The notes under the pieces are model-generated. The model was not told the origin of the DNA and did not search any database. It was given only the letters and a program-made list of their open reading frames with translations. The translations under genes and the position numbers were made by a program. Of a DNA stretch of 31,131 nucleotides, positions 2,707 to 31,131 are shown piece after piece; position 1 is the first letter of the stretch, and each line of letters opens with the position of its first letter. Source of the stretch: a virus; IMG/VR virus record IMGVR_UViG_3300006077_000020, positions 1 through 31,131 of that record; one strand, given 5' to 3'.

Positions 2707-3666
2707 CTACTCCATTTCGTAAACGATCTCTTCTGGATCAGATCCGTAAATATCGTACTTCATAATATTTACAGTAAATAACCGATCATCCTGCCTATTC
2801 TTCGTACACTTCAAAACCCTTACGTTTTCATCGTACACGATACCGCCTACTTCGTCCTTGACGTTCCTTCCATCTTCCATTAACGGCAACTTGAGCAAAT
2901 AGAAGATGTAGTCAGCATCGTACTCGGCATCGTTACCGTGCTTAATCGCAAGCACTCCGTCTTTCTCGCTTCCCTGCGACAGCTGGTTAATCAAGTAGAT
3001 GTTTATACCAAGATTGCTTGTAAGCTCTGCCAGTCGTGAACTTATCGTGCTGAACTTCTCATATCTATCAACCCCTGGCACTTCTATCTTCATAGCACTA
3101 TCTATCACGAAATGTTTTATCCCACCAGCATTAAGGAACTTTATTTCGTCAACGATCTCCGAAAGATCTCTGCTACTGGCATAGTGCATAATATTACTCT
3201 CGTTAGATCTAAACTCATTAAGCTTCTGGATCACTCTATCTTCGCCCATTTCAAAATCGAACCAAGATACCTCTTCGTAAAAACTGAAACCGCTTATTAA
3301 CTTCATTAGCAACGCACTTTTTCCAGATCCTCGAGATCCTACCAACTGAATAAAGTTCCCGATACTAAATCCGCCCTTCTGGTTTCTTACATACATTTCT
3401 TCGGTTACTAGTTGGTAATCCAGAGGGGTAATGCCAGTTTCTATCCGTGAAGGTTTCTTCTTCGCTTCTACACGCTTCCTGACAATATCAATCGGGATCG
3501 ACTTTTTAACTCTTATCTCTTCATCAATAAGATTGAGAAGTTCCCTTCTCGCTTCCAGATATTCGATCTCCTTCGCCTTTCCTTCTGCCATCTTACTGCT
3601 AGCATACAAATTGCTATATTCATTTCTTAATCTGTCAGCGAGCTTCTTTAATTCTAATTTATCCAA
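2707..3666 (-). CDS. RecA-fold (DnaB-like) replicative helicase ATPase
   Basis: The 319-residue protein carries Walker A GSRGSGKS at 110-117, a Walker B-like HFVIDS near 185-190, and a later INQLSQGS segment resembling the sensor region of DnaB/RecA ATPases. The N-terminal ~90 residues are helical and charged, unlike the globular DnaB N domain, which may instead be the separate protein at 4692-4366. The start is TTG at 3666: an AGAGGTGG ribosome site lies six bases upstream, there is no ATG nearby, and it overlaps the initiator gene's stop. It would unwind DNA at the phage fork together with SSB and the initiator. A RepA-like or RadA-like ATPase is the main alternative. Confidence 0.8.
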   Translation of the reverse strand: MDKLELKKLADRLRNEYSNLYASSKMAEGKAKEIEYLEARRELLNLIDEEIRVKKSIPIDIVRKRVEAKKKPSRIETGITPLDYQLVTEEMYVRNQKGGFSIGNFIQLVGSRGSGKSALLMKLISGFSFYEEVSWFDFEMGEDRVIQKLNEFRSNESNIMHYASSRDLSEIVDEIKFLNAGGIKHFVIDSAMKIEVPGVDRYEKFSTISSRLAELTSNLGINIYLINQLSQGSEKDGVLAIKHGNDAEYDADYIFYLLKLPLMEDGRNVKDEVGGIVYDENVRVLKCTKNRQDDRLFTVNIMKYDIYGSDPEEIVYEME

Positions 3667-4357
3667 AATATACCACCTCTTCTTTTTTCTCTTCTTTTAT
3701 GGCTGTATAGTCTAACACGAAATTTAAAAATGTCCTAGAATATTTCCCCTCCTCCTTTTGATGCAATAAATAATCATCCAGAAGAGATCTCTTGTCAGAT
3801 AAAGCACTATACGCCTCGTATAACTCTTGATCGTCCTTCACTTTTGATTTGTAAATGGCTTTCTCTCTTAGCTTAGTAAGTAATAGCCTATAATCAAGAT
3901 CAGATAACCGAGATCCTGCTTTTTTAGTAGCCTCCTCTTGGTTACTTTCTTTATTGCTTATAGGTTTAGTATTACTATGTCCCCCCTTTTTGGTATATAT
4001 ACCATTTTGGTAGCCTCCCTTTTTGGTATATATACCATTTTGGTAGGTTTGAAGATTTACGTCCTGGGCTTCACCATAGATCACATAAGTATAAGTGCCA
4101 GTTTTATTATCGGAACTCACATTATTTTTAGTTCTTGTGATCCAACCAGCTTCGATTAATTCCTTCCAGTACTTGGCCAGAGTATTCTCTTTTTTTATTC
4201 CAAGTGCCTTCATAATATCAGCATTGAAAACATTCCATCCAGAAGGCTTGGAGGCAATATAGCAATATACGACCTTCGCCCCGTTGCTTAGTTCCAGATC
4301 AGTAATTAAAGCATTTGGGATCTTCGTGTAATTATTTTTAAGTTTATTTATCAGCAT
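3659..4357 (-). CDS. Replication initiator / helicase-loader-like HTH protein
   Basis: The N-terminal ~90 residues form a winged-helix-like domain (YTKIPNALITDLELSNGAKV, then ADIMKALGIKKENTLAKYW and AGWITRTKN), the pattern of phage replisome organisers. A low-complexity linker carries two copies of YQNGIYTKKGG plus SNTKPISNKES, followed by a helical C-terminal domain of about 90 residues, possibly the helicase-loading part as in DnaD or lambda O/P-type proteins. The start at 4357 has an AAGGA site. Position between a DnaB-N-like gene and the helicase ATPase supports a role in origin recognition. The linker DNA contains palindromic tandem repeats that could be the origin itself. Confidence 0.75.
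   Translation of the reverse strand: MLINKLKNNYTKIPNALITDLELSNGAKVVYCYIASKPSGWNVFNADIMKALGIKKENTLAKYWKELIEAGWITRTKNNVSSDNKTGTYTYVIYGEAQDVNLQTYQNGIYTKKGGYQNGIYTKKGGHSNTKPISNKESNQEEATKKAGSRLSDLDYRLLLTKLREKAIYKSKVKDDQELYEAYSALSDKRSLLDDYLLHQKEEGKYSRTFLNFVLDYTAIKEEKKEEVVYFG
3984..4046. repeat. Two tandem 30-bp repeats with a 12-bp palindrome, candidate iterons
   Basis: Two near-identical 30-base units start at 3984 and 4017, a period of 33 bases (11 codons). Each contains the perfect palindrome GGTATATATACC (3992-4003 and 4025-4036) flanked by TTTTT and ATTTTGGTAG. They lie inside the initiator gene and encode the doubled YQNGIYTKKGG linker. The arrangement recalls lambda, where the O-protein binding iterons are inside gene O. 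Origin function is inferred. Confidence 0.65.
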
Positions 4358-4365
4358 ATTTTTCC

Positions 4366-4692
4366 TTAGTAGATTAAAGTGTTATTGAAAGCTGAAACGA
4401 TATCAGAGTGATATCTTTTAGCAAGTGAGAAGGGTAGCGGGGTCTGTGCAAGTATGTTCACCCAGTCCATTTCGTACACCGTTCCTTCTATAGCGTTTTC
4501 GAGTTCATAACTCAAATACGCATAAGCCCTATCTACAGCAGTAGTCGCATTGATCTTTACCGCAACCCTTCGCCTAAAGTCGCTAGTGAAAGCGTCCTCC
4601 GCAAGTTGAAAGGCATCCTTAGTGTCTAGTCCTATATCATTAGAATACAGAAATGACGCCAGTACAGCGTTCTCTCGATCCTCATTCGTCAT
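4366..4692 (-). CDS. Replication-block protein resembling a DnaB N-terminal domain
   Basis: The 108-residue protein begins TNEDRENAVLASFLYSND and continues LAEDAFTSDFRRRVAVKI. This matches the spacing of DnaB N-domain helices (E-x-x-VL-x-x-x-L, then DF-x-x-x-x-x-x-I), although I cannot confirm it without a profile search. If right, the helicase is split: N domain here, ATPase at 3666-2707, initiator between. It could equally be an unrelated loader or organiser. It is the first gene after the structured leader at 4733-4810 and has a poor Shine-Dalgarno sequence, so its translation may depend on that leader. Confidence 0.65.
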   Translation of the reverse strand: MTNEDRENAVLASFLYSNDIGLDTKDAFQLAEDAFTSDFRRRVAVKINATTAVDRAYAYLSYELENAIEGTVYEMDWVNILAQTPLPFSLAKRYHSDIVSAFNNTLIY

Positions 4693-4732
4693 AGTGTCTT
4701 TCGGAACAATAAAATTTAAGGTGTGTGATACA

Positions 4733-4810
4733 GAGCGTCCAAAACTGTTTCACCGTTATAACCTTATCGAAACGCCCTATCAGGTGATAGAGCTTCAGAG
4801 TTGGACGCTC
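4733..4810 (-). ncRNA. Structured 5' leader RNA, three-way junction
   Basis: A perfect 10-bp stem (GAGCGTCCAA at 4733-4742 with TTGGACGCTC at 4801-4810) closes two inner hairpins. In the minus-strand RNA these are CUCUAUC/GAUAGGG (4792-4786 and 4781-4775, loop ACCU) and GUUUC/GAAAC (4773-4769 and 4751-4747, 17-base loop). The first inner stem is complete only as RNA of the minus strand, where it has a G-U pair; the plus strand would have a C-A mismatch. The ACCU loop can pair with AGGU (4764-4761) in the other loop. A TATAAT at 4823-4818 places transcription start about one base before the stem. I match it to no known riboswitch or ribozyme. Confidence 0.65.
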
Positions 4811-4817
4811 CGATAAA

Positions 4818-4823
4818 ATTATA
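4818..4823 (-). promoter_or_regulatory. -10 box of the replication transcript
   Basis: The minus strand reads TATAAT at 4823-4818, about seven bases before the closing stem of the leader RNA, so the predicted first nucleotides are GGAGCG near 4811. I see no good -35 box at 16-19 bases upstream, where the sequence overlaps the hairpin at 4827-4857. The promoter may need an activator or may be weak. Confidence 0.45.
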
Positions 4824-4826
4824 ACA

Positions 4827-4857
4827 GAACTCCCAGAAAGTGGGGGTCTGGAAGTTC
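4827..4857 (-). terminator. Hairpin downstream of ssb, terminator-like
   Basis: In the minus-strand transcript GAACUUCCAG (4857-4848) pairs with CUGGGAGUUC (4836-4827), ten pairs including one G-U that would be a C-A mismatch on the other strand. It is followed by UGUUAUAAUUUUAU, T-rich but broken by A and G. It lies 27 bases after the ssb stop. It probably reduces read-through from ssb into the replication leader. Confidence 0.5.
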
Positions 4858-4883
4858 GTAAAAGTATTATACCAAAGTATATA

Positions 4884-5336
4884 TTAAAACGGTATATCGC
4901 CTTCATCAATATCTATTTCTGGAAGTGCTGTTCCAGCTTCTGCCTTCATTCCTTCAGTAGGTCTGTTTATAGCCCCTGCTACATTGTGACGATCTGGACG
5001 ATCTACATTATCGTTATAGGTATCAGATCTCTTGTCGACAAACTGGAAACGATCTATAGTCAAAGCAGTTTTTGTTTTTTTAGTTCCGTCCTGAGCCGTC
5101 CATTCATCAGTACTTATTTTTCCGACAATGAAGATCTGTGATCCTTTCGGCATAGTAGATATCAGTTCGGCAGTCTTTCCGAAAGCTGTTCCGTTCAACC
5201 ATAAAGTGGTTTCTTTTTCCTTATATTTTTCAGAACAAACCAATCCGACATTTCCGAAAGCAGTTCCGTTTTTTGAGTATTTTAATTCCTCCATAGGTCT
5301 GGATATCCTGAACAAATGAGTGATCGTAGGTAGCAT
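4884..5336 (-). CDS. ssb: Single-stranded DNA-binding protein (SSB)
   Basis: The 150-residue protein has an OB-fold with the usual order: MLPTITHLFRISRPMEELKY, TAFGNVGLVCSEKY, TLWLNGTAFGKTAELI, KGSQIFIVGKISTDEW and ALTIDRFQF. A flexible Asp/Asn/Arg-rich linker follows, and the protein ends in the acidic tip IDIDEGDIPF, the canonical SSB tail that recruits partner proteins. It coats single strands during replication and RecE/RecT recombination. It has its own promoter and is separated from the rest of the replication block by a hairpin, so it can be expressed independently and in excess. Confidence 0.93.
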   Translation of the reverse strand: MLPTITHLFRISRPMEELKYSKNGTAFGNVGLVCSEKYKEKETTLWLNGTAFGKTAELISTMPKGSQIFIVGKISTDEWTAQDGTKKTKTALTIDRFQFVDKRSDTYNDNVDRPDRHNVAGAINRPTEGMKAEAGTALPEIDIDEGDIPF

Positions 5337-5371
5337 AATTAAGTTCCTTTTTTTAATTTTAAGTGCGTTAT

Positions 5372-5400
5372 ATTATACCGTTTTACGCCTAAAATGTATA
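5372..5400 (-). promoter_or_regulatory. ssb promoter
   Basis: The minus strand has TATACA (5400-5395), a 17-base spacer and a perfect TATAAT at 5377-5372. The -35 box matches consensus at four of six bases. Start would fall near 5365, about 29 bases before the ssb ATG at 5336, whose ribosome site is AAGGAA. Confidence 0.65.
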
Positions 5401-30210: not shown

Positions 30211-31131
30211 GATTGATTCCCCCAACTGTCCCAACCGTCCCTTTTATTTCTTGCAAAAAGTTCCACTTTTGTTAAGTGCGGGAAAGCTTTCTCGATTATC
30301 TCATATACTTCGTGCGGTTTTGCACTATGCTTACCTCTTGGATAGCTTATCACACTTGATACTCTGTCTTTTGGTTCAGGCGGTGACATTTTACCTTTAG
30401 TCGCTACCATTAGAAGTTCATGCTGCCCCCTGAACCAATAACCCATACCTATCTTCTGTTTATCCCATACAGCGTGTGTTTTATAGGTGAAGCCCCATAA
30501 GGAAATAAGCTCTATTGCTTCGATAAGTTTTGGTGCTGTAGCCCACATATAAAGGATACAGTCATCTTCTGCTATATCTTTAACCCCAAGCTCTCCCATC
30601 TCCTCAACTGTCATTGTTGGATAATGGTTCTCTATTTCTCTATTACTTGTTTCTGCAAAATCATATTTCCAAGCGGGATCAGCGTAGATAATAGAATACT
30701 TTTCGTTAGTTGATATGTGTTCATTATTTTCTATTATCTCCTCAATTCTGGCTTCGCGTTCTGCCTTCTTCTCTTCCTTAACGATCTCTTTGTGCGCAGC
30801 GTTAATGCTCACCTCTCCACTTCTAACAAGCTCCTTCACGTCTTCAGGTGCTTTTTCAAGTATCTTTTTTACTTTAGAAATATTCCCCGCAGATACTTTC
30901 GCTTCTTTTGCGATCTCTTCTCGGGTATTAATCTTGTCAATATTGACAACACTAACACCCTGCCCAAGTTTGTTCTCCCTCGCCTTCTCCTTCAACATAG
31001 GTTCAAGCATAAGTGCCAGTTCTGCTCTTACGAAGGAAGTAATATTACGCTTTCCAAACTGATTGCGTATCATCCATACCTTTACCTCTTCAATGCTGTT
31101 AAAATCTCTTTTAACGGTATTAAATGGTATA
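30207..31131 (-). CDS. ParB-HTH-MT-A70 fusion DNA methyltransferase, C-terminal part
   Basis: Continuation of the gene that begins at 262. In full-length numbering, a KorB/ParB-like helix-turn-helix follows the ParB domain at about 125-145 (TREEIAKEAKVSAGNISKVK). A charged linker leads to an MT-A70 adenine methyltransferase domain at about 200-363. The family's DPPW catalytic motif appears as DPAW at 207-210 (IIYADPAWKYDF), followed by ENHYPTM and a C-terminal RGKHSAKPHEVYEIIE segment typical of the family. Known members transfer a methyl group from S-adenosylmethionine to adenine N6 in DNA or RNA. A DNA target is inferred here from the ParB and HTH parts. The stop overlaps the next gene's start (ATGA), so the downstream nuclease-like gene is coupled. 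The Pro-to-Ala change may alter activity. Confidence 0.88.
   Translation of the reverse strand, partial: IPFNTVKRDFNSIEEVKVWMIRNQFGKRNITSFVRAELALMLEPMLKEKARENKLGQGVSVVNIDKINTREEIAKEAKVSAGNISKVKKILEKAPEDVKELVRSGEVSINAAHKEIVKEEKKAEREARIEEIIENNEHISTNEKYSIIYADPAWKYDFAETSNREIENHYPTMTVEEMGELGVKDIAEDDCILYMWATAPKLIEAIELISLWGFTYKTHAVWDKQKIGMGYWFRGQHELLMVATKGKMSPPEPKDRVSSVISYPRGKHSAKPHEVYEIIEKAFPHLTKVELFARNKRDGWDSWGNQS
31037..31131. repeat. Terminal direct repeat, right copy
   Basis: Exact copy of positions 1-95. See the left copy. The reading frame of the ParB-methyltransferase gene runs through it without interruption in either copy. Confidence 0.95.

Follow-up and report, generated by a model that had tools for sequence, protein, structure and literature searches.

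Two tandem extended −10 promoter boxes were found on the minus strand, between the gene of a single-strand DNA-binding protein (SSB) and the replication genes of this phage, and the transcripts predicted from both of them would begin locked in RNA stems, whose likeliest role, proposed here tentatively and on the basis of modelled folds, is the protection of the replication-operon mRNA. The window, which is the whole stretch of 31,131 nucleotides analysed, carries a 95-bp direct terminal repeat (positions 1–95 and 31037–31131), so that the genome can be considered complete (circular or terminally redundant), with a length of about 31,036 bp. The gene order on the minus strand is SSB, leader, o108, replication initiator, DnaB-C-type helicase and nuclease, with the following features:

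4884–5336, minus strand: SSB gene, upstream of the leader (Pfam SSB, E = 9e-15)
4693–4883, minus strand: leader of 191 nt, between the SSB gene and o108
4866–4874, minus strand: promoter box P_A, extended −10 TGGTATAAT (TATAAT at 4871–4866), predicted +1 at 4859
4827–4857, minus strand: predicted hairpin 1, 11-bp stem (4857–4847/4837–4827) with one G-U pair and a 9-nt loop
4818–4826, minus strand: promoter box P_B, extended −10 TGTTATAAT (TATAAT at 4823–4818), predicted +1 at 4811 or 4812
4754–4826, minus strand: predicted hairpin 2, 24-bp stem (4826–4803/4777–4754), in P_A transcripts only; excludes the junction
4731–4812, minus strand: predicted three-way junction, beginning at the +1 of the P_B transcript
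4366–4692, minus strand: o108, small protein resembling a stand-alone DnaB N-terminal domain, first gene 3′ of the leader
3659–4357, minus strand: replication initiator gene of the same operon (phrog_4221/270 replication initiation protein, E about 1e-11)
2707–3666, minus strand: DnaB-C/RecA-type helicase gene of the same operon (Pfam DnaB_C, E = 1.3e-8)

The o108 protein has no Pfam match of its own, and its profile (A2) weakly matches the N-terminal part of the host DnaB. Relatives of the phage helicase and of o108 were found in Campylobacterota genomes, which makes a host from this group likely on sequence grounds.

The two promoter boxes are the only occurrences of TGNTATAAT in the 31-kb genome; about two are expected by chance genome-wide, and the two observed lie no more than 57 bp apart, on the sense strand and in the intergenic region, the P_A box being 48 bp upstream of the P_B box, which itself sits in the 5′ arm of hairpin 2. 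The main promoter type recognised by sigma70 in C. jejuni is TGxTATAAT without a −35 box (PMC3656092), and the P_A box fits this consensus (PMC3656092), in a phage whose host is judged from its relatives. The TATAAT that the first-pass annotation had noted seven bases upstream of the fold is indeed there, at 4818–4823; the upstream box P_A (4866–4874) had been overlooked. We assumed that each transcript starts seven bases after its −10 box: one predicted start, 4859, falls two nucleotides before hairpin 1, and the other, 4811, right where the closing stem of the junction begins. In the mechanism that we propose, both promoters would start transcripts. No intrinsic terminator was detected 3′ of the SSB gene, and on the minus strand between 4731 and 4857 there is no terminator-like site (a stem rich in G+C with a run of U after it), so that this part of the leader does not qualify as a terminator or attenuator.

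When the full 191-nt minus strand was folded, the minimum free energy (MFE) structure consisted of hairpin 1 followed by hairpin 2 and not of the junction, whose 5′ strand is consumed by hairpin 2. The junction had been described earlier as a 78-nt fold (4733–4810), and its parts, namely a 10-bp closing stem (4801–4810/4733–4742), a hairpin with an ACCU loop (4774–4793) and another with AGGU in its loop (4747–4773), are all present, and the fold as a whole and its closing stem exceed chance expectation; however, this fold is not the MFE of the full leader and needs a start near 4810–4816. As minus-strand RNA the closing stem P1 extends to 12 bp including one G-U pair (4812–4801/4742–4731), and encloses P2 (4793–4786/4781–4774, loop ACCU) and P3 (4773–4768/4752–4747, AGGU within its loop). 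The minus-strand RNA of 4730–4815 has a z-score of −5.27, a value that none of 200 shuffles reached. The complementarity of P1 was matched by 4/3000 dinucleotide shuffles of the downstream sequence, and the inner hairpins are only mildly unusual given P1 (when the inner part was shuffled, 14 of 300 sequences folded equally well). The 5′-terminal domain of the P_B transcript has −32.6 kcal/mol, and only 2 of 2500 sites taken at random from this strand give one as stable.

Which of the two structures is predicted depends on the transcript start. The probability of P1 is 0.99 in P_B transcripts vs 0.006 in P_A transcripts, in which most of the stem of hairpin 2 pairs with a probability of 0.99. 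Imposing the junction on the complete intergenic RNA costs 3.2–3.5 kcal/mol, and in RNA starting at 4811 the junction beats the truncated long hairpin by about 10.7 kcal/mol, these energies referring to RNA alone, free of proteins and translation. The result was stable across starts 4810–4816 vs 4857–4861, at 15, 25 and 37 °C and with three energy parameter sets; at 55 °C the long (P_A) transcript gave a mixture of folds. In a series of MFE structures of the growing chain, hairpin 2 had fully formed at a length of about 110 nt, when the 3′ strand of the junction was still to be transcribed. Hairpin 1, which occupies +3 to +33 of the P_A transcript after two free nucleotides, is of ordinary strength as a 5′-terminal stem (408 of 2500 random sites).

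The first-pass annotation had argued for selection at the RNA level from the closing stem, and this argument is thin when taken by itself, because the stem has a single G-U pair and its 10-bp core forms on the plus strand too. The whole leader makes the case better: its z-score is −6.60 as minus strand vs −2.46 as plus strand, and the long stem of hairpin 2 contains 5 G-U and 0 A-C among 23 pairs. The earlier suggestion that a structure at the RNA level coincides exactly with the 5′ end predicted for the replication-operon RNA is supported, at the level of modelled starts and folds.

A similar plan was found in one relative. In the viral contig L014, whose o108 is 57% identical, both boxes recur at this position, together with an 11-bp hairpin and a long hairpin with bulges. 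An 11-nt word of P_A, TGGTATAATAC, is kept, as is the P_B box in the form TGTTATGAT (the L014 copy is also given as TGTTATGATTT). The 11-bp hairpin stands in the same place as hairpin 1 with an unrelated sequence, and at the predicted +1 of P_B there is a strong stem, belonging to a long hairpin of unrelated sequence; its 5′-terminal domain has −22.9 kcal/mol (19/2500 random sites on the same strand) and its outermost pair is at +1. The L014 leader has a z-score of −4.60 in the sense strand vs −2.58 in the complement, and each of the two leaders is one of the most structured parts of its genome. When the whole leaders were aligned locally, the score was not significant (it was reached by 80 of 300 shuffles), whereas their 3′ parts align better than 997 of 1000 shuffles; therefore, the two leaders are probably homologous, with unrelated stem sequences. 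The L014 leader has no counterpart of P1 (its best complementarity was matched by 360 of 1000 shuffles), hairpin 2 is predicted there from either start, and hairpin 1 may be shortened to 7 bp by the position of the P_A start. Since L014 keeps the boxes and the stem without the junction, what is common to both phages is the 5′-terminal stem and not the junction.

This comparison covers two leaders, that of the window and that of L014, the only other of this kind found. The relatives of o108 in L003, L015, L018, L021, L022, L032 and L033 have no leader and directly follow the preceding gene, as do those in Campylobacterota genomes. The lack of a leader before o108 in L003, L015, L018, L021 and L022 indicates that it is dispensable for this gene set. 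A pattern joining both promoter boxes matched 12 viral contigs, all by chance except L014 itself. No match was obtained in a phage DNA search with window positions 4300–5400 or in a search of o108 against phages, and no viral contig was matched by the SSB, o108 or Rep protein used as a single query.

The two phages share a stem at the first nucleotides of the P_B RNA, but neither its sequence nor the junction, and this suggests a role for which structure at the 5′ end is sufficient; unrelated stem sequences in a kept position fit a role of structure rather than sequence. In Campylobacterota, RNase J and not RNase E is believed to govern mRNA decay, and mRNAs with a stabilising stem-loop at the 5′ terminus, such as that of E. 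coli ompA, are already known. In the leader of H. pylori vacA, a stem-loop at +4 to +30 lengthens the life of the mRNA via its structure: the half-life drops when the stem is broken and recovers with a mirrored stem, and hindrance of RppH and RNase J was proposed by the authors as the mechanism (PMC4843948). H. pylori belongs to the same phylum as the hosts of the relatives of this phage, and the likeness to vacA and ompA lies in a stem a few nucleotides from the 5′ end, with its position kept and its sequence changing. At the predicted starts the base of the stem falls within about 0–4 nt of the 5′ end, namely at +1 for P_B and +3 for P_A in the window, and at +1 for P_B in L014. Unlike vacA and ompA, the present case concerns a phage replication operon with two promoters and two predicted folds, one of them an 80-nt junction instead of a simple hairpin.

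On the strength of the shared 5′ stem and of the vacA precedent, we take the protection of the 5′ end of the replication mRNA as the most likely function. The RNA from P_B (+1 about 4811) would fold into the junction, with the closing stem beginning at +1, while that from P_A (+1 about 4859) would present two free nucleotides, then hairpin 1 and then the 24-bp hairpin 2. If the RNAs fold in the cell in this way, their stem-buried 5′ ends should be poor substrates for the pyrophosphohydrolase RppH and for the 5′-end-dependent RNase J, and the mRNA may be stabilised. Of the two roles suggested in the first-pass annotation, mRNA protection is the better one, whereas a control of translation by masking of the ribosome site is not predicted, the start region of o108 being equally open in both folds. 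Although 5′-terminal protecting stems are not new, the leader would be, if this reading is true, a clear case of RNA structure encoded by the start site, with two conserved tandem promoters giving different terminal stems, and, for phages related to those of Campylobacterota, one of the rare leader elements on record.

The dependence of the fold on the start could also have a function of its own, in which the use of P_A or P_B picks between two exclusive folds and the resulting mRNAs behave differently, so that differing stability, cleavage or protein binding would couple promoter choice during infection to the output of replication proteins. A change of P1 probability from 0.6% to 99% by the start alone, robust to shifts of a few bases, to temperature and to the energy set, speaks for such a switch, together with the rarity of the P1 complementarity among shuffles and the completion of hairpin 2 before the 3′ strand of P1 is transcribed. 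On the other hand, L014 has no P1-like alternative and is predicted to form hairpin 2 from both starts, no downstream terminator or masked site was found that could serve as output, and the equally open o108 start leaves the fold change without an evident effect. We consider a promoter-selected switch rather unlikely, and propose with the same reserve that, between promoters 48 bp apart, a short 5′ extension redirects the leader from junction to long hairpin, altering the fate of the replication mRNA without a ligand.

Early leaders processed by RNase III occur in phage T7 or lambda, and the length and stability of hairpin 2, as well as the long bulged stem in L014, would suit cleavage of the 24-bp hairpin in P_A transcripts to give a new 5′ end. 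Bulges and G-U pairs lessen the fit, and the closing stem at the P_B start is left unexplained by this processing, which we hold to be unlikely. A control at the DNA level, with the inverted repeats acting as operators between and over the promoters, or as cruciforms, and the RNA folds as by-products, seems to us unlikely as well: hairpin 1 lies between the boxes and hairpin 2 spans the P_B box, both good places for operators, and the repeat sequence differs between the phages, as is often the case in operators; but the folding is strand-asymmetric in both leaders, the stems contain G-U and yet no A-C pairs, arms of 11 and 24 bp are long for operators, and the inverted repeat of P1 has a separation of 58 nt.

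Two adjacent stem-loops just 3′ of an early promoter, which the leader presents in its predicted structure as a matter of resemblance only, are also the plan of HK022 putL, which, like the leader, has a −10-like sequence shortly past its start (PMC9378689), and hairpin 1 and put stem I are similar in size. An RNA of the put kind would suppress termination within the operon by binding RNA polymerase. A covariance model built from six sequences, which detects HK022 putL and putR and HK639, gave no hit at E ≤ 10 in either the window or the L014 contig. Unlike putL and putR, the leader has longer stems, whose sequences are not conserved between the relatives; put bases contact the polymerase, and the unconserved stems thus argue against a polymerase-binding RNA, making this explanation improbable.

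Finally, a ligand-sensing riboswitch with touching loops, to which the junction had been likened, is very improbable and unsupported: the likeness to the purine riboswitch is one of topology (closing stem, two hairpins and short complementarity between the ACCU and AGGU loops), whereas the leader gave no match above gathering score with the Rfam covariance models (the only sub-threshold match being a microRNA-type hairpin, E = 0.71), has neither a conserved ligand-binding core, as judged against the sole homologous leader, L014, which lacks the junction, nor an expression platform, and adopts the fold from one transcript start only. The proposed loop-loop contact is not supported either; it amounts to a complementarity of four bases between loops of 4 and 15 nt, to be expected by chance in about 5% of cases by our estimate, and has no counterpart in L014. 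A microRNA-family match obtained with L014 (E = 0.0036, far below gathering score) was set aside as a generic long-hairpin match.

Two further candidates were dropped, in both cases for too few bases of comparison: a leader peptide on the minus strand (4682–4753, GTG at 4753–4751) and a pairing of AAGGU with a downstream ACCUU. The reading frame 4682–4753 has AAGG eight bases upstream of its GTG, inside hairpin 2, and overlaps the o108 start out of frame.

The leader was also considered as a replication origin and judged less likely, given that perfect 33-bp repeats sit within the Rep gene. This direct repeat (3984–4046, 1.9 copies, each with the palindrome GGTATATATACC) likely represents an origin of the iteron type that lies, as in lambda O, within the gene of the initiator. 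The initiator gene of L003 contains, at 1970–2150, repeated CCCCCTCCATGAAAACACGGAGG units that are iteron-like too. As for the neighbouring genes, the DnaB-N-like o108 and the DnaB-C-like gene two further on possibly form a split replicative helicase, an arrangement present also in L014, L015, L018, L021, L022, L032 and L033. Elsewhere in the genome, the most structured 120-nt stretch by z-score (−6.3) lies in an MT-A70 methyltransferase gene, at 30841–30960 on the minus strand.
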